Assembly: GCA_009773455.1 (NCBI GenBank)
Contig: WSXU01000002.1
Span: 310,001 to 374,000 of the forward strand
Length of the DNA stretch: 64,000 nucleotides
Origin: Bacteroidota bacterium
Lineage (GTDB): Bacteria; Bacteroidota; Bacteroidia; Bacteroidales; Lentimicrobiaceae
Direction: 5' to 3'
Under the pieces are notes generated by a model, which saw only the letters and a program-made list of their open reading frames with translations, did no database searches and had not been told where the DNA came from. This document shows positions 39,527-55,085 of this stretch, one piece after another (the stretch's first letter is position 1; every line of letters begins with the position of its first letter). The position numbers were made by a program, and so were the translations under genes.

Positions 39527-40669
39527 TTAAACCTGGATCCGGTTTAAAACAGGTCTGGCGTATAAATTCAGGAGCAGCTTTCTGAGTTCATTCTGGTCGC
39601 CTTCGATTGGCCCTGTTTTCTGTGAAACATACTCACCGAAACGGGTAAATTCCCCACTGCTATAGTTGGCCGCATAATCATGCTTTCCGGACAACATGTC
39701 GAAGGCAATATAATTGTTTGGAAACAATCTGAACATACTGTGAATCTGCCGGTCCATCTCTGCAGCAGCAGCTTCAGACAGCCCGTTCTGATTCAGTGAT
39801 TTCCCTCTCAGGTCTTCAAGGAAGCTGTTCAGGGGAGTGCCGAAGGAAAAGTGTATTCTCCCTTTTGGGGATGTAATTCCTGAAAGGACACTTTTAAAAT
39901 CTTCATCTTTGTCCTTTATGTATTCCTGCCGGCCCGAAAGGTAGATCTCACGTGTTTTTTCGATATCACACGGCTCGTATTCATAAGAAACGGCCATTGG
40001 AACAATGTTCAGATCTATCAGGGCCTGCAGGGAATCGGCCTGGTAACCACCCAGCATTTTCAACAGGGCCGACTGGGTCAGGTCGTTTCCATCCTTGGTC
40101 CGTCCATTCCGTTGCGCAATCCATACAGATTCACGCTTGCGGAGAATGGCATCAGAGATATAGGCCGAGTGCAGGAGTGCATTCCTGTACATCTGTATTC
40201 TTGAACCATCACGGTAAAAGGTAAACATTCGGTTCAGCTTACCGAAATCAACCACCAAAGGTGAAGTCATCAGGTTGCTGCCAAAGGTGATCTGTGATGT
40301 TTTATGGCCGTTATCCAGCAACAGCACCTGAAGAATAGCTGCATCAAGCACAATATCCCTGTGATTGGATATAAAAAGGTAAGGTTCCCCTGTCTTCAGG
40401 TTCTCCTGGCCGCTCACCGACAAGCCGTCGCTGGTTTTTTTAACAATGGCGTTAACGGCATGATACATGAATTCAGCCTGAAAGGAATCAACAGAGTCAA
40501 GCTTCAGCAACATCTCTTTAACTCCGGCAAGAGGCCGGTCGGGGAAAAGATAGGCCAAAACAATATCAAAAGCAGGATAACCGGTAAGCCTGCGAAGGGC
40601 AGGCTGAACTTCCTCATCCCGGTAAGGCCGCATCAACTCAAATTCTGCTGAATAATTTATTTTGGTCAT
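39527..40669 (-). CDS. Glycerol-3-phosphate/1-acylglycerol-phosphate acyltransferase-like protein
   Basis: NHRDIVLDAAILQ (HX4D motif) and downstream acyltransferase pattern. Confidence 0.8.
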   Translation of the reverse strand: MTKINYSAEFELMRPYRDEEVQPALRRLTGYPAFDIVLAYLFPDRPLAGVKEMLLKLDSVDSFQAEFMYHAVNAIVKKTSDGLSVSGQENLKTGEPYLFISNHRDIVLDAAILQVLLLDNGHKTSQITFGSNLMTSPLVVDFGKLNRMFTFYRDGSRIQMYRNALLHSAYISDAILRKRESVWIAQRNGRTKDGNDLTQSALLKMLGGYQADSLQALIDLNIVPMAVSYEYEPCDIEKTREIYLSGRQEYIKDKDEDFKSVLSGITSPKGRIHFSFGTPLNSFLEDLRGKSLNQNGLSEAAAAEMDRQIHSMFRLFPNNYIAFDMLSGKHDYAANYSSGEFTRFGEYVSQKTGPIEGDQNELRKLLLNLYARPVLNRIQV

Positions 40670-41976
40670 ACCTGGTCTTTTCTCCTGTCAAAAAATATTC
40701 TGGGCTTGCGTGATCCGTCTGAATACTGCAGCTGTTCGAGCAGGAAAGGATCAGAAAATTCAATTCGCGGAGCCACCCTCAATTTCGCCCTGAAATGGTC
40801 TTTGATGGTTTTTTCAAACTCAGGTCCCTTCAGGTTGGTTCCGACCCTGATCAGAATCTCATCGGTATCGATTTCATTCGAAAACACTTCCACAATATAA
40901 TTGTCAATTCCCCTGATATCGTTGAGGATATCGTAAAGTGCCGGTGGATATATGGTTGTTCCCTTGTATTTGATCATCTGCTTTTTCCGTCCGATCAGGC
41001 TTCCGATGCGAAGGGTGGTTCTTCCACACCGACACGGTTCGGTGTAATGGCAGCAGATATCGCCACTTTTAAAGCGCAGCAGGGGCATCCCTTCAATGCC
41101 GAGGGTGGTGAAGGTTAATTCGCCCGGTTCGCCGGGTTTCACAGGGTTCTCATTTTCATCGAGAAATTCAACGATGAGCAGTTCAGGATGATGGTGACCA
41201 CCGCAGCCATGAACACATTCGGTAAATGCCGCACCCATTTCGGTCGATGCATAGGTGGAGAAAAGCTGAATATCCCAGTTTTCAACGATTTGCTTACCCA
41301 GCGTATTCAGTTCAAAATTGCCGTTGCGGATCGGTTCCCCGATGCAAAAGGCAGATTTTACAGACGTGTCGTTGAGCCGGATTCCATTTGCGGCGGCATA
41401 TTCAATCAATTTCAACAGGAAAGAAGGGACGGTCACCAGTGATGTTGGCCTGAACCGGTTGAATGAATCGATCTGCAATTCCGGATTTCCGGGGCCAACC
41501 CTGACCGCAGCAGCCCCCAGCTTACGGATTCCAAGGAAATAAGCCAGTCCGGCCATAAAGCGCCGGTCCATGGTTACCATCAATTGGTAGATATCCGAAG
41601 GAGAGCCGTTGGCGGTGGTGAAAGAAAGATATTCATTGTATGCCAGGCGGTCGAGATCCTTATCGGTAACAGCAAAGGTAATCGGTGTACCCAGGGTTCC
41701 CGAGGTAGTGATGTAATCGATGATTTGCCCGGGTTCCACACAAAGGAAATCCATATTGCTTGCCTGCAGGTTTTCCTTGCCGGTCGTAGGAATATGCTTC
41801 AGATCGGTAAGCTTTCTGATTTTGGAAATATCCGTGTTGTTCTCCCTGAAAAGCCTGGAATAATAGGGAGAATGGTGCTGCAGGTACTGAAGCAGTTCCT
41901 GAAGGCGCGATTCCTGATAGCTGGTAATCTCACCAGGTCCGAGCGTTTCTATTTTAGGAATAACCGATATTGACAT
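40666..41976 (-). CDS. Phenylacetate-CoA ligase-like (PaaK family) AMP-forming adenylating enzyme
   Basis: YITTSGTLGTPITFAVT, STYASTEMGAAFTEC, LLRFKSGDICC. Start at MSISVIPK preferred: a TATTTTTG -7 element (41999-42006) lies downstream of the ORF-track start at 42009. Confidence 0.85.
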   Translation of the reverse strand: MSISVIPKIETLGPGEITSYQESRLQELLQYLQHHSPYYSRLFRENNTDISKIRKLTDLKHIPTTGKENLQASNMDFLCVEPGQIIDYITTSGTLGTPITFAVTDKDLDRLAYNEYLSFTTANGSPSDIYQLMVTMDRRFMAGLAYFLGIRKLGAAAVRVGPGNPELQIDSFNRFRPTSLVTVPSFLLKLIEYAAANGIRLNDTSVKSAFCIGEPIRNGNFELNTLGKQIVENWDIQLFSTYASTEMGAAFTECVHGCGGHHHPELLIVEFLDENENPVKPGEPGELTFTTLGIEGMPLLRFKSGDICCHYTEPCRCGRTTLRIGSLIGRKKQMIKYKGTTIYPPALYDILNDIRGIDNYIVEVFSNEIDTDEILIRVGTNLKGPEFEKTIKDHFRAKLRVAPRIEFSDPFLLEQLQYSDGSRKPRIFFDRRKDQV

Positions 41977-42138
41977 AAACCCATTTGCGGTAAAGGCGCA
42001 AAAATACAATTAATAATGAATTGATGAAGCGGGCATTGGTAAAGGCAATCAGGACAGAAAGCAGCCAGGCGCCGGAGGTGGCTCCTTTTAAAGGCTTCCG
42101 TCCGATTGTTTTCGGTTACTGCTGCTTATCTTTCCCGG

Positions 42139-42178
42139 AAAAGCCGTACGGCTTTCAGAAAAAAGATGCTCATCTTTT
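42139..42178. repeat. Two adjacent palindromes: AAAGCCGTACGGCTTT (42140-42155) and AAAAGATG-CT-CATCTTTT (42161-42178)
   Basis: Read directly; the first shares its core with the 46-bp palindrome that follows. Confidence 0.8.
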
Positions 42179-42190
42179 CAGGAAAAGGAG

Positions 42191-42236
42191 CTTAGGATTT
42201 ATATAAAAGCCGTACGGCTTTTATATAAATCCTAAG
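42191..42236. repeat. Perfect 46-bp uninterrupted palindrome CTTAGGATTTATATAAAAGCCGTACGGCTTTTATATAAATCCTAAG
   Basis: Each 23-nt half is the exact reverse complement of the other; no loop. Confidence 0.95.
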
Positions 42237-42283
42237 GAAGAAATCATAAAGGGGGGCTTAAGGGTATCGATAACCGGATCAAG

Positions 42284-43963
42284 CTATTTCTCAATAACCT
42301 CCATCAGCATCGCCTCCACTTCCTCCCGGTCAACCTTCCGGGGAATTTCCTTTTCAAGGGATAATTTGAACTTCTCCGCAGCCTTTGCCGGAAGTCCGCT
42401 TAAGTTGTAATACCTGCCAGCCAGAAAATAGGGGTAATAATAGCCCGGGTTCAGGTCAAGGTAATGATTGATAAAGGCTTCTGTGAGGAATCCTGAATGT
42501 CTCTTGTCCAACCTGTTTTTCAACCAGGCGGTTGTTTTCATGTATTCCCTGTAACGGGTCCATTCGCCGGATAGTAAAAAAGTATCTGCCGGGATGGTGA
42601 GTTCCCGGATGTCGATTTCGTTCCGAAAATCAGGTTTTCCATTAAATACGGCATTTAAATCATAACAGAGATAAGCGCCCTCCTGGTAAGGGTCTGTTGA
42701 AACCCACACTTTCAGTTCGGCGGGCTTAAAGATCACCGAATGATGGGCGATCAGCTGGTTGATGGCCTTTTCGTTTCCGAGCCCGATGTCAGCATTCTTC
42801 AGGCCCTTTCTGTCGCGCAATATGCCGGCAGCACTTACAGGATTTAGCTCAGGTGTTTGGTTAAGCAGTTCTTCAACCCGCTGATAACGATAGGGCGAGG
42901 CGCTTTCAGCCATACTTTCAGTGGTGAGTTTATCCCTGCTGAAGGTATCGCCCTGGAAATGGTTGGTGACTATCAGCCTTGATCGGGCCGGTGAAAATAC
43001 GCCCGTTTTCTCCGGCGATTTTTCAATCAGGACAGCCCTGTTTTCCTTTGCAGACCCAATCAGGAAAGATTCGGAAACAAAAGTCTGGTTTTCGCGGGCA
43101 ATTTGAATGGCTTCATCGGTGGTGGCCGCATATTGCAGAATGGTTCTGGCAAGGATAGAAACCGGTGTTTTTGCCTTCCACGGGATCGATGATTTTGCTG
43201 AATTCAGCGTGATGGTGAGCCCTTTTTCATTCATCCCGGATACCACCCCGGTCATGCCGCCCCAGGTCAGCATCATCAGGCGGTAGCCCTTGTCGGGGTT
43301 GAGAAAAACCACGATTTTGTTACGCGCAAAATCCTCGCCCATATAAAAGTCGAAATTCCGGCCGATGATGAGTGTACTGTCTTCCGAATCGCCATTCCAG
43401 GCTGCAAAAGCCGTGCATCCCACCAGGTTCAGGTTCTGCATGGCATGGCCGATATCGTGCGCAGCATGATAATTCAGGATACGCTGGTAGTTCGGGGCTA
43501 TGAAATCATACTCAGAAGATGCAGCCATGGAAACCCCATAGATTTCCTGCTGATTTTCCTCCGGGACATAAACATCCATATCGCGGTTAAACCAGGCCAC
43601 AAAGTACTTCAGGGTATTGATATACCAGGGTGACGGAACCATTTCGCGCAACCGTGCCACGAACACCTCTTCCTGGTAACCGATCAGCTCCCTGGTAAGT
43701 ATCCCGTTGATCAATCCCATCTCAAAGGGGCTGCCTTCAAGGTACATTTCATAAATTCCCAGCCTGTTTTTCCGTATCCAGCTGTTTTTACAGGTGAGTA
43801 TTCCGGGAGCCACCGTATCACGCCCGAGGCCGGTCGGGATTTTATTTCCGACATCGGGTGGATTAAAACTCACCGCCTGAAAATAATAGATGATGAAGGC
43901 AGCCAGCAGCAACAGCAGCAGCAACAGGATACGGACAAGCCGGTATCTGAAAAATTTCTTCAT
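42284..43963 (-). CDS. C45 family autoproteolytic acyltransferase/hydrolase-like (Ntn) protein with N-terminal TM
   Basis: NLVGCTAFAAWNGDSEDSTLIIGRNFDFYMGEDFARNKIVV; candidate Cys nucleophile; C-terminal TPR-like helices. Confidence 0.82.
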   Translation of the reverse strand: MKKFFRYRLVRILLLLLLLLAAFIIYYFQAVSFNPPDVGNKIPTGLGRDTVAPGILTCKNSWIRKNRLGIYEMYLEGSPFEMGLINGILTRELIGYQEEVFVARLREMVPSPWYINTLKYFVAWFNRDMDVYVPEENQQEIYGVSMAASSEYDFIAPNYQRILNYHAAHDIGHAMQNLNLVGCTAFAAWNGDSEDSTLIIGRNFDFYMGEDFARNKIVVFLNPDKGYRLMMLTWGGMTGVVSGMNEKGLTITLNSAKSSIPWKAKTPVSILARTILQYAATTDEAIQIARENQTFVSESFLIGSAKENRAVLIEKSPEKTGVFSPARSRLIVTNHFQGDTFSRDKLTTESMAESASPYRYQRVEELLNQTPELNPVSAAGILRDRKGLKNADIGLGNEKAINQLIAHHSVIFKPAELKVWVSTDPYQEGAYLCYDLNAVFNGKPDFRNEIDIRELTIPADTFLLSGEWTRYREYMKTTAWLKNRLDKRHSGFLTEAFINHYLDLNPGYYYPYFLAGRYYNLSGLPAKAAEKFKLSLEKEIPRKVDREEVEAMLMEVIEK

Positions 43964-43965
43964 GA

Positions 43966-45465
43966 TCAGGCGTTCCTTATTTTCTGTACAACAGATTGAA
44001 TATCGATAAAATTTCCGGCTGTGATCAGTGCTCCGATGGTAACACCCAGCATACCGTGATTGTTGATGTTCTGCCCGGTAAAATAGAAATTCGGAATTTT
44101 AGTCCTGACGGAAATAAAGGTTTTCAGCGCATTGTTACAGTCCTTTTCAATGCCGTACATCGATCCGTTCACGGATCCGGTATAATCGCGGAAGGTCAAT
44201 GGTGTGGCGGCGTAGGAATGCAACACATTACCCTTAATTTCAGGAAGCTTTTTCAGAATCAGGGTGGTTAGCGCTTCCATCTTTTCCTGTTTAAACCTCC
44301 TGTAATCCTCACCCCGCCTGCCGGTAACCGTATTTTCCCATTGTCTGACTTCGTTGTATTCCAGCATCGTAACAACTGTAATGCTTTCAGCGTAACCTGT
44401 ATCGCCGTCTTTGGTTGTGTAAAGCATATATCCATGCGGCCATGGTTTGCCCGGGGTCCTGTTGATGTCCCATACATCCTCATCCACCGAGTAATAGAGG
44501 TTCCCGTTCCGGTGTCGGATTTTCCCCTTCCCAACAACCAGGTAAAGCACAAAAGCGCCGATGGTGTTCTCAATATTCCGGATTCTGTCGGTGTAAACTT
44601 TTGGAAGTTTCCCGGGTTCGATCCAGTCGAGGCTTACCGCCGGATGCACGGCCGAGATAAAATTGTCTGCAAAATAAGCTTCACCCGCGGATGTTTCTGC
44701 TGATGCAACTCTCTTACCTTCGAAGGATAACCTTGTTACCTTTTTGCCGGTCAGCACCAAACCGCCTTGTTGCTCAATCTTTGAAACAAGGGCATTGGCC
44801 AGTTGGTGCCCGCCTCCTGACATCCTGTAAGCACTCCCCAGGTAAAAGTTGTTGGTATTGGCAAGCAGATTGACCGGGGTCTTCTTTGAATTTCCGCAGT
44901 AAAGACCGTTGTTGCCCGCCAGCACGGCACGAAGAAGCTTGTTCTGTGTCAGGTTATTGATGAAATCAAAAGCGCTTTCATTGTAGCTGAAAAAGTAGGC
45001 TGCCTTATCTGTTTCATCGTCGAAGATCCCGAGGGTATTTACCTGGTTGCTGACCCTTTTGATGGTATCAATATAGGCATCAATCGCTGATTCTTCACCG
45101 GGAAAATATTGCTTCAGGTTTTTAGAAAAATTATCATATCCGGTGGAGAACCTGAATTCCCGGTCACCGATTGAAATCACATCATAACCTTCATCATCGA
45201 GCCGTTGTACTTTAAATTTATCAACCAGACCGAGGTATCTGAAAATCTGGTATAGTGGCTGACCTTTATCATACGAGCCAATATAGTGCATGCCGGTGTC
45301 GAACAGGCAGCCATTGCGGCTGAATGTCTGAAGGTTGCCCCCGGCTTTTTTGTCCCTTTCAAGAACACAGACTCTGTAATTGTTCTGAGAAAGGATGCCG
45401 GCGCACATCAGACCTCCCAGGCCACCGCCGATAATTACGAAATCGTATCGTTGATCAGTGTGCAA
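43966..45465 (-). CDS. FAD-dependent oxidoreductase, phytoene desaturase/CrtI-CrtO-like
   Basis: YDFVIIGGGLGGLMCAGILSQNNYRVCVLERDKKAGGNLQTF; C-terminal NFYFTGQNINNHGMLGVTIGALITAG. Confidence 0.88.
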   Translation of the reverse strand: MHTDQRYDFVIIGGGLGGLMCAGILSQNNYRVCVLERDKKAGGNLQTFSRNGCLFDTGMHYIGSYDKGQPLYQIFRYLGLVDKFKVQRLDDEGYDVISIGDREFRFSTGYDNFSKNLKQYFPGEESAIDAYIDTIKRVSNQVNTLGIFDDETDKAAYFFSYNESAFDFINNLTQNKLLRAVLAGNNGLYCGNSKKTPVNLLANTNNFYLGSAYRMSGGGHQLANALVSKIEQQGGLVLTGKKVTRLSFEGKRVASAETSAGEAYFADNFISAVHPAVSLDWIEPGKLPKVYTDRIRNIENTIGAFVLYLVVGKGKIRHRNGNLYYSVDEDVWDINRTPGKPWPHGYMLYTTKDGDTGYAESITVVTMLEYNEVRQWENTVTGRRGEDYRRFKQEKMEALTTLILKKLPEIKGNVLHSYAATPLTFRDYTGSVNGSMYGIEKDCNNALKTFISVRTKIPNFYFTGQNINNHGMLGVTIGALITAGNFIDIQSVVQKIRNA

Positions 45466-45466
45466 G

Positions 45467-46975
45467 TTAAAATGATTTTAGTTTATTGATCAGATAATCA
45501 TACCCCAGCAGTTCGGAACAGGTAAGCACCGAACCGATGGAAACACCAAGTATTCCATGCATGTTCAGGTTCTGACCGGTATAAAGCAGGTTCGATATCC
45601 TTGATCGCGGTGAAACAAGGCCTGCATATGGGTCCTTCCAGTTTTTCAGTATCCCGTATGCGGATCCTTCAGGCGTACCCGTGTAATCGCGGTAAGTCAG
45701 CGGTGTGGACGTATGAAATGTCTTGATTGATCCTTTGAATCCGGGCAGTTTCCTTTCAACAAAATCAATCAGCTTTCCGGCCTTTTGATTTTTAAATTCC
45801 AGATAAGATTCGCCCCTGCGTCCCACTGCTGTATGAGCCCACTGCTCCACTTCCTCATAACGCATATAGGTAATCACAATGGCGCTGTCGGCCCATTCTT
45901 CAGACCTGGAAACAGCCGGGGTATACATCATAAAGTGGGTAGGCCAGTCGCTGATCCGGTAACCCGTGGTCCAGGTATTGACCTCTGCGAAATGGTGATG
46001 GTTGAAATTCAGGTAAGGGAATGATTCTTCCTTAAAAGTCACATAAAGGGTAAACATTCCTATGGTATTTTTCATGCTGTTGATCCGCTGCCTGTGACCT
46101 CTTTTCGACAGTGAATCTTCAATCAGGTTAACCGTCAGGGATGGGTGAAGATTGGAAATAAAGTGTTTCCCGTTGATGCGTGTTCCGTCTTTCAGCCGGG
46201 CAAATCCGATGGTTCTGTTTGCGCCGCCAAGGCAATCAACTTCAGCATTTTTAAAAATGTGACCGCCAAAATCCTCAATTTTCCTGGCAAGTTGCACGGC
46301 AAGCTGCGAACTGCCATCCACCAGTCGCCAGGCACTGGTCATAAAAGAATAACAAATCAGGGCATGCACATAGAACGGCGTGCTGTCCTCAACACCTGCA
46401 TAAAGGGAGTTGGTTCCGGCAAGCACCTGCTGAAGCTTATAATCGGCAGTTACTCCCTTCAGCGTATCAAATGCGCTTGAAGTAAGATACTTATGTTTGC
46501 CTGAATCGTTTGGTGATTCACTTAATGAAAATAAAGGGAAAGAGTTGCAGGCTTTCTCCATCAGCTCAACATAAGCGGTCAGGTTCCGACGTTCACCGGG
46601 GAAACAGGAAGACAAATGTTCGATAAAGTTATGCTTCCCCTGGGCAAATGGATATTCAACAGGATCACCGTTAAAGGATATCTTTTCAAAGGCATCCATA
46701 TCCATCCTCCGGATTTTAAGCTTATCAAAAACACCGAAGTATTTGAAATACCGGTTAAGCGTTTCACCTTCGCCAAGGCTTTCGGTGAAATTAAGGCCTG
46801 TATTGAAAATAACCCCGTTCCGGGCAAATGACTGAATGCTTCCTCCGATCCTGTTGTTTTTTTCAAGTACACAAACACTGAAACCCTCATGGCTGAGAAT
46901 ATTGGCACAGAGCAATCCGCCCAGGCCGGCCCCGACCACCACAACATCATAGTTCTCCGAAGGACCGTTTTTCAT
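45467..46975 (-). CDS. FAD-dependent oxidoreductase, phytoene desaturase/CrtI-CrtO-like (tandem paralogue)
   Basis: YDVVVVGAGLGGLLCANILSHEGFSVCVLEKNNRIGGSIQSF; NLLYTGQNLNMHGILGVSIGSVLTC. Confidence 0.88.
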   Translation of the reverse strand: MKNGPSENYDVVVVGAGLGGLLCANILSHEGFSVCVLEKNNRIGGSIQSFARNGVIFNTGLNFTESLGEGETLNRYFKYFGVFDKLKIRRMDMDAFEKISFNGDPVEYPFAQGKHNFIEHLSSCFPGERRNLTAYVELMEKACNSFPLFSLSESPNDSGKHKYLTSSAFDTLKGVTADYKLQQVLAGTNSLYAGVEDSTPFYVHALICYSFMTSAWRLVDGSSQLAVQLARKIEDFGGHIFKNAEVDCLGGANRTIGFARLKDGTRINGKHFISNLHPSLTVNLIEDSLSKRGHRQRINSMKNTIGMFTLYVTFKEESFPYLNFNHHHFAEVNTWTTGYRISDWPTHFMMYTPAVSRSEEWADSAIVITYMRYEEVEQWAHTAVGRRGESYLEFKNQKAGKLIDFVERKLPGFKGSIKTFHTSTPLTYRDYTGTPEGSAYGILKNWKDPYAGLVSPRSRISNLLYTGQNLNMHGILGVSIGSVLTCSELLGYDYLINKLKSF

Positions 46976-49005
46976 TTTTCTGCCCGTTTCAAAACAAATG
47001 TAATATCAGCCTTTTTCGTGGATTTGTCATCCCGTTCAACGACAAAATTATGCTTCGCTGCGATATCTGCAATAATGGTACCTGACGTAAAGTATAAAGC
47101 ATCGGCACTGGTTTTGTTAAACCTGAAAAAGCGGGTTGAATAAAACTCGTTCAACCGGGTTCTCCACATTCTTTTCTTCAGGTCGGTATCCGCATCCCTG
47201 ATGATAATCATTCCCCCGGTATTCAGGTTATTGATGCATTTTTCAATCACCGTTTGATGAAATCCGGAAGGCAGGTAGTGTAAAACATCCAGCAGCAGAA
47301 AAACATCCGCCTTTGGTAGTTCATAGTTAAGGATATCCGCCACTTCGAAGCGGACATTCTTCAGCGAGGTGTCAATCTGGCCTGTAATGGCAATTTTATT
47401 ACTATCGTAGTCAAGTCCCAGTATCCTGCGCTTATCTGAGACCATGCACAGCATATGGCAAAGAAAGCCATAACCGCAACCGATGTCAACAATCATGGCT
47501 TCACGGGGTATGATGCTGTTTAACCGGCTATAATTCTTCTCCAGGCTGACTTTTATCCTGGCATACCATTCAATGAATGGTCCCTTATATAAAAACTGAC
47601 TGAGCAGCCGGTTGCGGAAATAACCCGGCGTTTCAAGCTCTTCACTCATTTTTTCAAACTCATTGCGGTATATTTTGCGGAGAGACTGAGCCTGAATCCT
47701 GTATGATTCATCATCACCGACACTGGTCACTTTGATTTTCCCGAGCGCCCTCAGGGTGATACTGCCCGGACGGAGAAAGAACTCCCTTTTAATCATGCAG
47801 TGATTTGCCCCGTGAAGCAGCAATGGTTGAATATCGATCTTCAGCTTGTCGGCCAGCCAGAAAGCTCCCTGGTGAAACCTGTTGATCCGCCCGTCGTTCG
47901 TGCGCGTGCCTTCGGGAAAAACCAGGATGGAATAGCCCTTCTCCACTTTCTTGCCTAACCTTTCGGCCAACTGTTGATCCAAACCTTTGAATATGGGATA
48001 GAACTCGGCAAACCTTACGACAAAGCCATAGAAAGGGTTGTTCCAGACCCATTTGTTGGTCAGTACGATGATTTTGGGGTGAAGCATCAGGATAATGGAC
48101 AGATCGAGATGCGACTGGTGGTTGCACACGATGACCGAAGGCTTGCTGAAATCAACTTTATTACGGATCTCAATGACTTTCCTTATTGGGAAGATGGAAT
48201 AGACCACGATACGCAGTGTAGCTGAAACAAGCCAGTGGAAAATGTATCTGGTCCTGTCGCGACCGATAGGAACAATCCTCAGAACCGGGATGATCAGGGT
48301 AAGAAGCAGCGAACCGGTCAGAAACATTAAAAATGCAATGATGGAAACCAGAAAGCTGGTTAATGTCACTGGCTCAACCCTCCTGGTGTGCTTGTGATAA
48401 ACCAGTGACTTAAACACGACAGGAACCAGCAACCCTGATAGCGCCAGGGTAAAAGTGATTGCCGATACTGTAACCAGGGTACCCGGGCTGAACACCGGAT
48501 GCCCTGCCACCCATAACAGTAAAAGCAAAACCAGCAATGAAAACAGTATATAAAATAGTCCGGAAAGTAAGGACGGTGGAACATTCTTGCCGGATTTATA
48601 TCTGTTGACAAGTCCGCGTTCCAGGTAAATACTGTAACCGGTACCCAGGCCAAAAAGCAGCGGTGTTTCAAGCAAGAGGAAATAACTGTCGGCATTGCCC
48701 TGATTCCGGATGAGTCCGTTCAGGCCCAACCAACCTGCAAATAAAGGAATCATGCTAATCAGCGCCAGTTCTATCCGCCCGAACACCATCAGCAGTATAA
48801 TAAATGCAATACCGGCTGAAATAAGGGGATTCATCCCTGAATCCGTATGGATAACCTTCTGCAGCAGTCCGTTGCCCTCTCCGGGAATGCCTGCATCAGA
48901 TGTAATATAATCTGCAATGAACAACAACCCAAATGCTATGATGAACCCAAGCGCCGCAAAAAATGCGGCTGTTCTGAAAGGGTGGTATCCGATAGGTTTG
49001 CTCAT
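46972..49005 (-). CDS. Fusion: MMPL/RND-like TM region + PlsC acyltransferase + SAM-dependent methyltransferase
   Basis: N-terminal multi-TM with MMPL-like LLFGLGTGYSIYLERGLVNR; PlsC NHQSHLDLS and FPEGTRTNDGRI; methyltransferase VDIGCGYGFLCHML. Confidence 0.85.
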   Translation of the reverse strand: MSKPIGYHPFRTAAFFAALGFIIAFGLLFIADYITSDAGIPGEGNGLLQKVIHTDSGMNPLISAGIAFIILLMVFGRIELALISMIPLFAGWLGLNGLIRNQGNADSYFLLLETPLLFGLGTGYSIYLERGLVNRYKSGKNVPPSLLSGLFYILFSLLVLLLLLWVAGHPVFSPGTLVTVSAITFTLALSGLLVPVVFKSLVYHKHTRRVEPVTLTSFLVSIIAFLMFLTGSLLLTLIIPVLRIVPIGRDRTRYIFHWLVSATLRIVVYSIFPIRKVIEIRNKVDFSKPSVIVCNHQSHLDLSIILMLHPKIIVLTNKWVWNNPFYGFVVRFAEFYPIFKGLDQQLAERLGKKVEKGYSILVFPEGTRTNDGRINRFHQGAFWLADKLKIDIQPLLLHGANHCMIKREFFLRPGSITLRALGKIKVTSVGDDESYRIQAQSLRKIYRNEFEKMSEELETPGYFRNRLLSQFLYKGPFIEWYARIKVSLEKNYSRLNSIIPREAMIVDIGCGYGFLCHMLCMVSDKRRILGLDYDSNKIAITGQIDTSLKNVRFEVADILNYELPKADVFLLLDVLHYLPSGFHQTVIEKCINNLNTGGMIIIRDADTDLKKRMWRTRLNEFYSTRFFRFNKTSADALYFTSGTIIADIAAKHNFVVERDDKSTKKADITFVLKRAEK

Positions 49006-49019
49006 CTTTGCCGATTTGT

Positions 49020-50192
49020 TTACTTTTCTTTCCGCCAGAACGACAGGGCTGAATAGCTGATGACAAAGGCTCCGCTGCCGGTAATTAAAGCAAGCAATAT
49101 TGCACCCAGCACATATTGTTTCAGGTAGGTAAATGCCACATCAAAGGTAACATCCATCATCGAAAAAGAATGCAGTCCGCTTTTGCCAAGCAACAATCCA
49201 CCCGTATAGAAACTCGCAAAAAGTATCAGGGGTATCATGGGCGGGATGCTGATGTTGGCAGCGACAAAAAAGATTGCCTTGTTAAGCCTGAACAGATGTG
49301 CCAGCGTAAATCCAACCAGAAGCTGGTATCCCCATATGGGGACAATGCCCATAAACACTCCGAATCCTATGGCCAGCGCTATTTTCAGATTTGTACCGGT
49401 GGCCAGGTATATTTCATCGTGGATGAGCTGACGTATGCTCTTTTTTCTGTATGGACTCAATGCTTTTTTTGGCCAGAAAACAAACAATGACAGGGTAACC
49501 AGCAATACATTCAGCAGGGATATCCTTATAAAATCGACAAAAGGACGATAATGTGAGATTCTTTCCCCTTCCGGGGCATAATAGACCTCAACAGGAACAG
49601 TTTCAACCTCCAGGCCTTTCCAAACCGATTTTACGATAACCTCCACTTCAAATTCGAACCGGCTTGAAATAAACCTGGTTCCCTTAAGTTTCCTGACAGG
49701 ATACAGCCGGAAACCAGACTGGGTGTCGGACAGTTTCAAACCAGTCATGACTGTGATCCAGAAATTGGAGAATCGCTTGCCAACAGAACTCTTTAAAGGC
49801 ACATTATCAACATTCATATTGCGCGATCCGATGATCAGCGCATCGGGGTGCTGTATCGACTTCTCAAGAAAAACCGGTAAATTCCTGACGAGGTGCTGTC
49901 CGTCAGAATCAATGGTGATGGCATAATCATAGCCCTTTTCGGTCGCGAGCCGGAAAGCTTTGCGCAACGAATAACCCTTGCCACGGTTGACTTTATTATG
50001 AATGATATCAATACCGGTAAACCGGTCAAGCACTTCAGCCGTGCCATCGGTTGAACCATCATTGACAACAATGATACGTGAAGTAAACGCCAGGGCATCC
50101 TCAATCACACCGGCCAGGGTTGCCCGGTTATTGTATGTAGGAATGATGATACAACAGTTGTGAGAATCAAAAATGTTTTGTGTACTATCCAT
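49020..50192 (-). CDS. GT2 family glycosyltransferase fused to DUF2062
   Basis: CIIIPTYNNRATLAGVIED...IIVVNDGSTDGTAEVL; C-terminal GTNLKIALAIGFGVFMGIVPIWGYQ. Confidence 0.9.
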   Translation of the reverse strand: MDSTQNIFDSHNCCIIIPTYNNRATLAGVIEDALAFTSRIIVVNDGSTDGTAEVLDRFTGIDIIHNKVNRGKGYSLRKAFRLATEKGYDYAITIDSDGQHLVRNLPVFLEKSIQHPDALIIGSRNMNVDNVPLKSSVGKRFSNFWITVMTGLKLSDTQSGFRLYPVRKLKGTRFISSRFEFEVEVIVKSVWKGLEVETVPVEVYYAPEGERISHYRPFVDFIRISLLNVLLVTLSLFVFWPKKALSPYRKKSIRQLIHDEIYLATGTNLKIALAIGFGVFMGIVPIWGYQLLVGFTLAHLFRLNKAIFFVAANISIPPMIPLILFASFYTGGLLLGKSGLHSFSMMDVTFDVAFTYLKQYVLGAILLALITGSGAFVISYSALSFWRKEK

Positions 50193-50559
50193 TTTCCTTC
50201 CTTAATATCCCCTTTATTTTCAGATATGTACGATTCAGGTCGGACAGTGACCCGGAGAAGGAGATGTCTCCTTCCGGCAATCCCTCAAAGTTTATCTCGC
50301 AGGTGAGGCCACTGACATCCGTTGGGTTCATCATGTTGATGAATTTGCAGACTTTTGTTTCTGAAAGCAGAAATGAACCACTTTCAAAGGAACACATAAC
50401 CTCTTTCATGATCTGAACCTGGCAAACTCCGGGAACCACCGGCATTCCCGGAAAATGCCCCCGGTAAATCCTGTGCTCAGCATTGAGTTGAATACCCGCC
50501 TTGATCAAGCCGTTATCCTGAACAATATTTTCAATATAAAAGAAATCTCCGGTAAGCAT
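50185..50559 (-). CDS. FabZ/FabA-like 3-hydroxyacyl-ACP dehydratase
   Basis: HRIYRGHFPGMPVVPGVCQVQIMKEV hot-dog dehydratase signature. Confidence 0.85.
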   Translation of the reverse strand: MLTGDFFYIENIVQDNGLIKAGIQLNAEHRIYRGHFPGMPVVPGVCQVQIMKEVMCSFESGSFLLSETKVCKFINMMNPTDVSGLTCEINFEGLPEGDISFSGSLSDLNRTYLKIKGILRKENG

Positions 50560-51218
50560 TATTTTTCAATGTTTAAAATTGAGAGTTTCATCGTGTGTTT
50601 CACAGGCCGGCCGTAAAATGTAATCGATGATGGCATGTCTGTACTGTCATAATCCAGGTGTAAAATGAGCTTTTCACCGAAACATTTACGCTGTTCTATC
50701 CTGTAAGGTAAACCTTCGCGGCGGTAAAAATAAAGATACTTTGTGAGGCCCTGCCTGGTTTTGTATACAATATCGTTTGTTTTCAGGTCGGTGCATTTCT
50801 TTGAATTCTTCATGCATTCAGGCTCAAAAACAAGCATTCTGACATTTTTTTCAATGGAATTGATGATCACCCGTCGTTTCAGGAAGTCCTGGCAATTGTT
50901 AATGGTTGTGCCTGATTTACCAATTGACATATCCATCAGGTTCAGACCAAATTCCGATAACATTACGATCCTGAACGAGCTGTCAGCCGGCACCGGTTTT
51001 ATAAGGAAAATTCCTGAGAATTGTTTACCAAAGGCTTCCATATTGGCTTTATACAAAACCCGGGTAAAATCCCCCTTCAGCGGGGCGCCGGCAAAGAGAA
51101 TGGCACTGGCTCCTGATTCTGCATCACCACACTTCTTCAATCCGGAACAGGATCCGAATAAAGTCGTCAAAACCAGAAGGAGGAGAACCTTTACGGATTT
51201 TTCTGCCATTGATATCAA
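50559..51218 (-). CDS. Lipoprotein, LolA/LolB-like
   Basis: Lipobox LFGSCSG; beta-rich pattern FSGIFLIKPVPADSSFRIVMLSEFGLNLMDM; position in lipid-type cluster. Confidence 0.55.
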   Translation of the reverse strand: MISMAEKSVKVLLLLVLTTLFGSCSGLKKCGDAESGASAILFAGAPLKGDFTRVLYKANMEAFGKQFSGIFLIKPVPADSSFRIVMLSEFGLNLMDMSIGKSGTTINNCQDFLKRRVIINSIEKNVRMLVFEPECMKNSKKCTDLKTNDIVYKTRQGLTKYLYFYRREGLPYRIEQRKCFGEKLILHLDYDSTDMPSSITFYGRPVKHTMKLSILNIEK

Positions 51219-51281
51219 TCACTTAATCTTAATTTCCACTTTCATCATCACAAGGTCAAAGAATTTCCGGTAAGTGCAACA

Positions 51282-52367
51282 TCATCGAGCCGCCTTACTC
51301 TGGCATTTCTGCAACAACATAAATGAATGATTTCTGAACCCATCGTGATGGTAGATCAGGATCTGCCCGATTTCCCGTTCCACCGGGTTAAGCCTGGCAT
51401 AACCGGGAATTTTTCCTTCACGCATGATCCGGGCAGCAAACCACAATCCAAAGCTGGCAGCTGTGTCGTATTCGCCGGAAAGATGTTTGTATATTCCATG
51501 GATAGATTGACGAAACCCTGAGTTAAGCAATTCAATGGTAAAGGCATCCGAATCCCTGTCGCCGTTGTTGCCTGTCAGAACAAGGTCAATCTGTTCCGGT
51601 CCGGAACCGGAATCTGAAAGAAATGCAAGCATTTTCTCCAGGACTTCATCCTGACTATCCGAATATGGGTAAAGTGAAACTCCGTCTATCCGGGCATAGC
51701 TTTGTTCCGCTTCCACTGAAGAAAGCACAAAAAAGGCAACGCCTTCACCCGGAATGCTACCCGGACTTTTGCTATTCAGGATATCAAGGTTCGTGAATGG
51801 CTCACTTTTCCAGAGACCTATGCTCTTCTTGAGTTCGTAATTTTCGTTCGTAATTTCATCGATGCCACCCACGAGCACATGCCCGGCTTCGCCGTCTTCA
51901 ATCAGCATACAGGCATCGATCAGTGCACTTTCAAAGGAGGCCGTCTTATGGGAGTAAACAACATTATAATTGTTGCATTCCAGGTTCAGGGCGATCTGAG
52001 CTCCCAGAGAGTTGTGATTCGACTGGATAAAATTGGTTGGTGTCAGAAACTCCGCATTTTCATCAATGAGCTTATTCAGGAATTTTTCCGATTCCTCGAC
52101 ACTGCCCAGGCTTGAGGCAACAATAATGGCATCCGGTTTTTTAATCCCCGATTCGTTCATGCATTCAAGGGAACAGATGCTGCTGACCTTGACAAGGTTA
52201 CTCATACGCCTCCGCTGGAGCGGATTAAAGTAAAGCCTGAAATCAGGAAGTCTGAATTTCATTACTCCTTGCATGACTTCAACCTCTCCTGGGAGCTTCT
52301 CTGACAGAAACGTATCGTGGGGCGAAAATGCCTGCGCTGCAGATATATATACCTTCATATTCAACAA
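51282..52367 (-). CDS. Beta-ketoacyl synthase-like chain-length factor (no active-site Cys)
   Basis: KS-fold segments IIVASSLGSVEESEKFL, LVGGIDEITNENYEL; the segment aligned to the KS Cys loop reads VVYSHKTASFESALIDA. Confidence 0.8.
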   Translation of the reverse strand: MLNMKVYISAAQAFSPHDTFLSEKLPGEVEVMQGVMKFRLPDFRLYFNPLQRRRMSNLVKVSSICSLECMNESGIKKPDAIIVASSLGSVEESEKFLNKLIDENAEFLTPTNFIQSNHNSLGAQIALNLECNNYNVVYSHKTASFESALIDACMLIEDGEAGHVLVGGIDEITNENYELKKSIGLWKSEPFTNLDILNSKSPGSIPGEGVAFFVLSSVEAEQSYARIDGVSLYPYSDSQDEVLEKMLAFLSDSGSGPEQIDLVLTGNNGDRDSDAFTIELLNSGFRQSIHGIYKHLSGEYDTAASFGLWFAARIMREGKIPGYARLNPVEREIGQILIYHHDGFRNHSFMLLQKCQSKAAR

Positions 52368-53623
52368 CCTGAAAAAACCAGTGAAGTATTGTTACCACCG
52401 AATCCGAAAGAATTCGACAAAACATGGTTCACCGGAATATTGGTTAGTACTTCCTTTACGGGAATCAGTTGCAGGCCATCCATCGGCTCGCTGAAAAACA
52501 GGTTGGGGAAAACAACCTGATTCAGTATCGACATCACAGAAACAACGGCTTCTATACCACCGGCTGCACCCAGGGTATGTCCGAAATATGATTTGGTGGA
52601 GCTGAAAGGAGGAACATGATTACCGAATACCCTTCCCAGTGCCGTTGCTTCCGTTACATCGTTGTTTTCCGTTCCTGTTCCGTGCACATTGATATAGCTG
52701 ATCCGGCTACTTTCAATCCCGGCTTTCCTGAGTGCTGCTGTCATACTCAGAAAGGGTCCGTTTCCTTCGGGAGAGGTTGCTGTAGGATGATAGGCATCGT
52801 TGGCATTGGCATATCCCGAAAGCATGGCCAGCGGCTTCGCTCCTCTTTTTATCGCGGCATCAACCGACTCAAGCACCACCACTCCGGCTCCCTCCCCGAG
52901 GTTCATTCCTGCCCTGTTTTTATCAAAAGGTCTGCAGATTTGAGGATCAACAACCATCAATGAACTGAATCCGTAATAGGTAAACTTCGACAAAGCGTCT
53001 GTACCACCGGCTATCACACGGTCAACAATTCCATGCTTTATGAGCCTGGCACCCAACATGATCGCATTGGCTCCGGATGAACAGGCCGTTGAAATGGTGG
53101 TGGCATAGCCCCTGATTCCCAGATGATCGGCCACCTGCTCGGTGATGTAGCCACAACTGTGACTTTTTATGTAAGTATTGTTTCCCGGAAATTTATGATA
53201 GTATTTCTCTGTCAGGTCCATACCACCGACCGTATTCCCCAGTACAATTCCCGTTCGCCAGGGGTCTTCGCCCGAGATACCGGCCTGATCCATGGCCTCT
53301 CTGACAGCCACAATCGCGAGCAATGCGGATCTGGGAAGGTCGGACGACTTATCGCAACCGGTCAGTGCGGCAATCTGCGGGTTGGTTGATCTGATTTCCC
53401 CTGCCATGAAGGCATGCTCACCCTTATCAATGAGCAGTTCAACCAGGTGAATTCCGGTTCTTTGCTGCATAAGAGACCGCAAATTTTCTTCCCTGTTGTA
53501 TCCTATCGCTGAAATGATCCCCAAACCGGTAACACATATTTCTTTATTCATATCCAAACCACTGCTGCTGAAGTCACCCATATGAAGCCTGAAGTTTCTG
53601 ATTTCCCGGAAACTGATTTTCAT
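52361..53623 (-). CDS. Beta-ketoacyl-ACP synthase (FabF-like)
   Basis: TISTACSSGANAI (Cys), NVHGTGTENND (His), KSYFGHTLGAAGGIE (His). Confidence 0.93.
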   Translation of the reverse strand: MKISFREIRNFRLHMGDFSSSGLDMNKEICVTGLGIISAIGYNREENLRSLMQQRTGIHLVELLIDKGEHAFMAGEIRSTNPQIAALTGCDKSSDLPRSALLAIVAVREAMDQAGISGEDPWRTGIVLGNTVGGMDLTEKYYHKFPGNNTYIKSHSCGYITEQVADHLGIRGYATTISTACSSGANAIMLGARLIKHGIVDRVIAGGTDALSKFTYYGFSSLMVVDPQICRPFDKNRAGMNLGEGAGVVVLESVDAAIKRGAKPLAMLSGYANANDAYHPTATSPEGNGPFLSMTAALRKAGIESSRISYINVHGTGTENNDVTEATALGRVFGNHVPPFSSTKSYFGHTLGAAGGIEAVVSVMSILNQVVFPNLFFSEPMDGLQLIPVKEVLTNIPVNHVLSNSFGFGGNNTSLVFSGC

Positions 53624-53921: not shown

Positions 53922-53956
53922 TTAAAAACATTGAGGGAACTTTTCAGGTTCCCTCA
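53922..53956 (-). terminator. Intrinsic terminator downstream of prfB
   Basis: TGAGGGAAC-N7-GTTCCCTCA stem followed on the minus strand by ATGTTTTTAA. Confidence 0.7.
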
Positions 53957-53989: not shown

Positions 53990-55085
53990 TTATATGGCAT
54001 CTCTGCCGAATTCCATGAGAAAGGCCTTGATAAAATCGTTGAGGTCCCCATCAAGTACACCAGCTGTATCACTGGTTTCGTGATCGGTACGCAGGTCTTT
54101 TACCAGTTTGTAAGGATGAAGCACATAGCTCCGGATCTGTGAACCCCATTCAATTTTCTTTTTCTTGCCTTCAATCACCGCGATGGCTTCCTTCTTCTTG
54201 CGGAGTTCAATTTCATACAACTGTGATTTCAGCATCTGTATGGCTTTCTCGCGATTCTGGCCCTGTGACCGGGTTTCCTGGCATTCAACTATAATTCCCG
54301 ATGGTTCATGTTTGAGCCTTACAGCGGTCTCCACCTTGTTCACATTCTGCCCGCCGGGTCCGCTGGAGCGGAAAGTATCCCAGGTAATGTCGGATGCATT
54401 GATCTGGATGTCAATGTTATCATCTACAACAGGGTAAACATAAACAGAGGCAAAGGAGGTATGACGTTTGTTGGCAGAGTCGAAGGGCGACAGCCTCACC
54501 AACCGGTGTACCCCGTTCTCACTTTTGAGGTATCCGAAAGCATTTTCACCTTCAAATTCAAGAACGACTGATTTGATTCCGGCCACATCGCCTTCATGCA
54601 TATCGAGTTCCTTGATTTTGTATTTGTTTCGCTCACCATAACGCACATACATACGCATGAGCATTTCGGCCCAGTCGTTGCTTTCGGTTCCGCCGGCTCC
54701 GGCATTAATCTGTAAAATTGCGCTCAAACGGTCTTCCTCATTGGAAAGCATATTGCGCAATTCAAGATTTTCGACGCGGTCGATGGCTACAGAAAATTGT
54801 TTGTCAAGGTCTGCCTCTGTGGCATCACCGGCATCGTAAAAGTCGAACATCACAAGGAGGTCCTCAACAGCCATTCTTGCCGATTCAAAATCGGTTGTCC
54901 AGCGCTTCTTTTCCTGAATGGCCCTGAGCAGCAGTTCGGCTTTTTTGGGATCGTCCCAGAAACCCTGCTGATGGGTAATTTCTTCTTCTTCTTTTATCTG
55001 TTCAAGTCTGGCATCAATGTCAAAGGAACCTCCTTAAAGCATCAAGCCTTTTCTGAATGTCATTCAACTGATCTTTCTGAACCAT
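53990..55085 (-). CDS. prfB: Peptide chain release factor 2, requiring programmed +1 frameshift
   Basis: Main ORF contains GGQ ([19 protein letters not shown]). Upstream zero-frame ATG GTT CAG AAA ... TTA AGG AGG TTC CTT TGA C; +1 shift joins [32 protein letters not shown]...MAVEDLL. Confidence 0.95.
55019..55034 (-). promoter_or_regulatory. prfB: Programmed +1 ribosomal frameshift site in prfB (AGGAGG TTC CTT TGA C)
   Basis: Internal SD AGGAGG at 55034-55029, slippery CTT at 55025-55023, in-frame TGA at 55022-55020, then C. Confidence 0.95.

Follow-up and report, generated by a model that had tools for sequence, protein, structure and literature searches.

Predicted flexirubin genes held at two loci in a Lentimicrobiaceae genome

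Described clusters and the eleven-gene block

The aryl polyene clusters of Proteobacteria (ape, xanthomonadin) encode ketosynthase (KS), chain-length factor (CLF), dehydratase, GT2 glycosyltransferase, MMPL and LolA-type components. Such clusters are not known to contain a CrtI pair, a C45 protein or a FlxY-type ligase. Work on the flxA–flxY cluster of Chitinophaga pinensis established tyrosine ammonia-lyase activity for FlxA and 4-coumarate-CoA ligase activity for FlxY; FlxW was proposed in 2014 to be ‘ligase-like’, and beta-keto reduction was suggested to fall to FlxB or FlxV (PMC3992019). When public genomes were scanned with the C45 protein studied here, 80 loci were retrieved, almost all carrying Bacteroidota titles. 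The Chitinophaga loci have the C45 gene in the order CLF, polysaccharide deacetylase, LolA, LolB2, dehydratase, GT2, MMPL-PlsC-methyltransferase, CrtI, C45, AcpS-like and FlxY, and the same order is also found in other Bacteroidota. A single contig of C. polysaccharea carries the FlxA-side and FlxU-side genes in one continuous run.

The window, a stretch of 64,000 nucleotides, contains eleven minus-strand open reading frames (ORFs) at 39527–53623, designated A to K (Table 1). They are tightly packed or overlapping, with spacings between successive genes from A to K of −7, 63, −1, −8, 14, −4, 1, 2, 274 and −4 bases. An earlier note on this DNA had listed the same eleven ORFs; its coordinates are correct and the overlaps it quoted are real. 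Pfam and NCBIfam profile searches, used to assign the classes, bear out the enzyme types it proposed, except that F is not a full MMPL-PlsC-methyltransferase protein, most of the transporter being absent. A terminator-like hairpin separates the block from the upstream prfB, which makes a promoter of its own probable for the flx block. The prfB gene itself (window 53990–55070, minus strand) is covered by two overlapping frames and contains an in-frame stop, a pattern resembling the programmed frameshift known for release factor 2.

Letters were assigned to the window genes by counting back from FlxY (gene J, which passes the cut-off of the FlxY model), using position and the functions named for C. 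pinensis (PMC3992019). Set against that cluster and C. polysaccharea (loci L080 and L205), A, B, C, D, E, F, G, I and J correspond in order to N, O, R, S, T, U, V, W and Y, with H and K as additional genes. Judged by sequence, this block makes up half of the established gene set through which many Bacteroidetes produce the yellow-orange pigment flexirubin. The earlier description of an aryl-polyene/flexirubin-like cluster is thereby supported and sharpened to flexirubin by the FlxY and LolB2 models and the Chitinophaga order. An aryl polyene (ape/xan) definition that lacks FlxY, tyrosine ammonia-lyase and Dar genes does not fit this set, which includes FlxY, FlxA and DarB/DarH-type genes.

The earlier note had also taken the CrtI pair together with the C45 protein as suggesting a variant product, and this part was not supported. 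The C45 gene adjoins a CrtI-like gene and FlxY in Chitinophaga too, so these enzymes are standard parts of the set and do not point to a novel product. Tandem CrtI genes recur in about ten other Bacteroidales loci. The block clusters with a known flexirubin family having the same desaturase and C45 protein. We take it to belong to an established pathway, probably in rearranged form: the pathway is ordinary, its arrangement unusual, and the block does not represent a novel class of lipid cluster.

Alignments place Cys181, His314 and the GHTLGAA motif of the ketosynthase A all in position, with the active-site Cys absent from the CLF B. The nucleophile of the C45 protein I, Cys183, is invariant (81 of 81 aligned sequences), and hydropathy indicates one N-terminal transmembrane helix. 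The dehydratase D keeps His35 and has Gln49 in the column where FabZ presumably carries Glu; Gln is found in 20 of 22 aligned sequences, so the FlxS-type dehydratases may not be ordinary dehydratases.

Table 1. Features of the window block and of the second flx block on contig C49 of the same genome (G000)
Feature	Location	Strand	Basis
A: ketosynthase, FlxN position	window 52361..53623	-	PF00109/PF02801; active-site columns
B: chain-length-factor-like KS partner, FlxO position	window 51282..52367	-	PF13723/PF00109; alignment
C: LolB2-type flexirubin lipoprotein, FlxR position	window 50559..51218	-	NF053540 LolB2_flexi, 80 bits (cut-off 60)
D: FabZ-like dehydratase, FlxS position	window 50185..50559	-	PF07977; alignment
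E: GT2 glycosyltransferase + DUF2062, FlxT position	window 49020..50192	-	PF00535, PF09835
F: shortened FlxU, 677 aa	window 46972..49005	-	PF01553, PF13847; length and alignment
G: CrtI-like FAD oxidoreductase, FlxV position	window 45467..46975	-	PF01593/PF13450; tree
H: second CrtI-like FAD oxidoreductase	window 43966..45465	-	PF01593; tree
I: C45 autoproteolytic acyltransferase, FlxW position	window 42284..43963	-	NF040521, 224 bits (cut-off 85)
J: FlxY, 4-coumarate:CoA-ligase-type enzyme	window 40666..42009	-	NF053551, 653 bits (cut-off 520)
K: PlsC-like acyltransferase	window 39527..40669	-	PF01553
Terminator-like hairpin, prfB/gene A interval	window 53932..53956	-	consensus match only
FlxA tyrosine ammonia-lyase	C49:481521-483047	-	NF053541, 794 bits (cut-off 700)
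FlxB ketoreductase	C49	-	NF053542, 372 bits (cut-off 340)
Two ACPs	C49:479239-479493, C49:473750-474004	-	own-genome searches
FlxJ-like methyltransferase	C49	-	524 bits, below cut-off 560
LolA2	C49	-	LolA2_flexi, 229 bits (cut-off 125)
DarB candidate	C49	+	533 bits (cut-off 550); StlD/DarB subfamily 515 (cut-off 450)
DarG family	C49	+	128 bits (cut-off 70)
DarH	C49	+	453 bits (cut-off 300)

The second flx block and the probable split

An ACP, a ketoreductase and an ammonia lyase had been reported missing, and a search for distant ACP and ketoreductase genes had been suggested. All three are indeed absent from the window block but present elsewhere in the genome: searches of the genome for ammonia lyase, ACP and KS located complementary flx genes at C49:464312-483047, among them ACPs and FlxB, and their apparent absence arises because this second flx block lies on another contig. 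Its minus-strand operon runs from 483047 down to 469998, in the order FlxA, FlxB, KS, ACP, LpxL-like acyltransferase, FlxJ-like methyltransferase, FabZ-like, an unknown, thioesterase, KS, KS-like fragment, ACP, KS, CLF, deacetylase and LolA2. A convergent plus-strand block (464312-469980) encodes a DarA candidate, a DarB candidate, a DarG-family protein, DarH, and an ABC-type ATPase with a permease. The DarA candidate had no match in Pfam or NCBIfam; its homologues adjoin DarB in three other loci (L068, L103, L109).

Compared with the Chitinophaga clusters, the C49 block matches A, B, the KS, ACP, DH and MT genes, N, O, P and Q. The LolA2/LolB2 pair is complete in the genome, with LolB2 in the window and LolA2 on C49. 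By these assignments the genome holds a near-complete predicted flexirubin set, in two places, and the window block is very probably its downstream half (FlxN/O and FlxR–FlxY positions), with the upstream half on C49. The present set differs from the Chitinophaga clusters in occupying two loci, in having a second KS-CLF pair, a shortened FlxU, two CrtI-like genes where there is one, and an extra acyltransferase (K), and in the absence of AcpS (position X) from the block.

Among 60 genomes (this one and 59 relatives), FlxY was found above cut-off in nine and FlxA in eight, all of them within the nine. The probability of such overlap at random is near 4e-9, a strength that is overstated since the genomes are related. 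Neither gene was found above cut-off in 18 other genomes of the same genus.

The surroundings of the two blocks suggest how the halves came apart. In five flx-free genomes of the same genus (G001, G006, G012, G016, G017), prfB is followed directly by an arsC-like gene, together with fumarase in G017; in another, G011, an M64 peptidase gene stands beside an acyltransferase gene. Here the window block lies between prfB and M64, and the C49 block between the acyltransferase gene and the arsC-like and fumarase genes. As the genes flanking both blocks are neighbours in the relatives, with the M64-side junction seen in one genome only, the halves would lie at the two reciprocal junctions of a single exchange. 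Homology to relatives ends near the edges of the window block, and base composition gives no hint of foreign origin. Most simply, an uninterrupted cluster, or one that had once been duplicated, was probably cut by rearrangement. No shared repeat was found at the breakpoints; besides weak KS-gene matches, the only match was between a palindromic repeat inside the window cluster and C49 at 491 kb. An assembly misjoin is an unlikely but conceivable source of the split, the genome being a 159-contig assembly, although both halves are situated inside long contigs (385 and 502 kb). Separate contigs likewise carry the FlxA block and the CrtI-C45-FlxY block in two other genomes (G063 and G064, those of loci L088 and L110), with other neighbours.

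Searches of an open-access library brought up no paper on split flexirubin loci or on tandem CrtI genes in flexirubin clusters. Halves separated by rearrangement can make the flexirubin pathway look incomplete in one window, and detection rules that require ACP, ketoreductase and ammonia lyase to be adjacent may overlook or mislabel loci of this type in Bacteroidales.

A near-perfect 20-bp palindrome (CTTAGGATTTATATAAAAGCCGTACGGC...) lies between genes I and J at window 42191–42236, and a related copy (77% over about 100 bp) is found on C49 near 491.4 kb. It is thus a dispersed repeat, and it may separate J–K from A–I in transcription.

Proposed pathway and competing explanations

The pathway that can be drawn for this set rests on gene identities, gene order and co-occurrence observed here, with the FlxA and FlxY steps taken from the C. 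pinensis assays and the other steps predicted. FlxA on C49 would convert tyrosine to 4-coumarate, which FlxY (J) would activate to 4-coumaroyl-CoA. Ketosynthases, ACPs, the C49 ketoreductase and dehydratases from both blocks (C49 and D) would then build the aryl-polyene, to be modified by the FlxJ-like methyltransferase on C49 or by the methyltransferase domain of F, and DarB and its neighbours on C49 would supply the dialkylresorcinol. The G/H pair would probably carry out redox work on the polyene or ring. The membrane-anchored C45 acyltransferase (I) is predicted to form the ester between aryl-polyene and dialkylresorcinol, a role that would agree with the 2014 FlxW proposal, the C45 protein being FlxW by position. 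Transport of the pigment to the outer membrane may involve LolA2/LolB2, the GT2-DUF2062 protein and FlxU.

Gene F, in the FlxU position, retains a few transmembrane helices of the MMPL exporter, followed by PlsC and methyltransferase domains, and so departs from the full-length MMPL exporter-PlsC-methyltransferase fusion that is common to most flexirubin sets, though not strictly defining for them. Nearly all complete homologues are 1245–1309 aa long (about 1285 aa), and alignment reveals that F lacks about 600 residues of the exporter half, including the RND porter region. Export may therefore be impaired or rerouted. Among about 50 complete homologues only one is similarly short, a 678-aa protein (L086:6462-8498) that retains the N-terminal helix and has lost the porter region; this ORF is intact. 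Its closest relatives belong to a different set (59% to L078), which suggests that the two proteins were shortened independently. The genome also encodes a full-length MMPL-PlsC-type protein of 1277 aa outside any flx block (C12:269863-273696). It was considered as the missing MMPL half, but at only 27.5% identity to F over 505 residues it is a separate, distant paralogue.

The loss in FlxU, together with the split and the absence of the set from the rest of the genus, could mean that the flexirubin cluster is decaying and that the finished outer-membrane pigment is no longer made. This is unlikely: apart from F the genes are intact, without stops or frameshifts, the checked catalytic residues of A and I are present, and the L086 cluster is otherwise well kept despite its short FlxU. 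It is very unlikely that the window holds a self-contained, new aryl-polyene-like lipid cluster with a non-flexirubin product, borrowing its ACP and ketoreductase from housekeeping fatty acid synthesis. The block does lack ACP, ketoreductase and ammonia lyase, and has its own KS-CLF pair, two CrtI-like genes and the extra acyltransferase K; against this, J and C match the equivalog models for FlxY and LolB2, C49 carries a complementary half with FlxA, FlxA and FlxY co-occur, and known flexirubin producers share the gene order. A role in ordinary phospholipid synthesis could be read from the PlsC domains of F and K, yet it would account neither for the FlxY match, the C45 protein and the CrtI pair nor for the co-occurrence with tyrosine ammonia-lyase and the absence from 18 genomes of the same genus, and its probability is negligible.

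Tandem CrtI genes and other Bacteroidales features

Within the flexirubin assignment, the real deviations from known clusters are modest. The loci sharing the tandem CrtI pair (among them L048 of Salinivirgaceae, L057 of Prolixibacteraceae, L051, L056, L093, L088 and L110) have in common with the window the CrtI pair, C45 and usually FlxY. In the CrtI tree, G falls with one Bacteroidales set and H with another, and both sets include L048, L056, L057 and L093; the pair is thus old and shared, with H an ancient paralogue of G. Where the F gene is complete in these loci it has the 1280-aa form, unlike that of the window, and the gene order around KS-CLF also differs, the KS-CLF pair standing directly before the CrtI pair in L088 and L110.

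Gene K occurs beside or near FlxY in Bacteroidales loci only, as in L051, L057 and the window, and is not found in the Chitinophaga neighbourhoods. G063 and G064 likewise have a second KS-CLF pair, and G061 has part of one. The idea that the window pair is a recent copy of the C49 pair was rejected, since identity between them is no higher than 48% and 33%; trees of KS and CLF do not settle their order.

Taken together, the CrtI pair, the second KS-CLF pair, K and the porter-less FlxU could mark a Bacteroidales branch of flexirubin synthesis with a different product and another export route. We regard this as rather doubtful; if true, the product might differ, for instance, in its unsaturation or by one more acyl group. 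The CrtI pair and the porter-less FlxU pose two concrete, testable questions, on flexirubin tailoring and on export, that the 2014 paper left open (PMC3992019).

The scan with the C45 protein also encountered a second type of C45 cluster in Bacteroidales (L050, L059, L072, L098, L115, L116, L122 and similar), in which conserved genes of about 423, 128 and 800 aa follow C45, often with no adjoining FlxY. These clusters possibly represent another product class.
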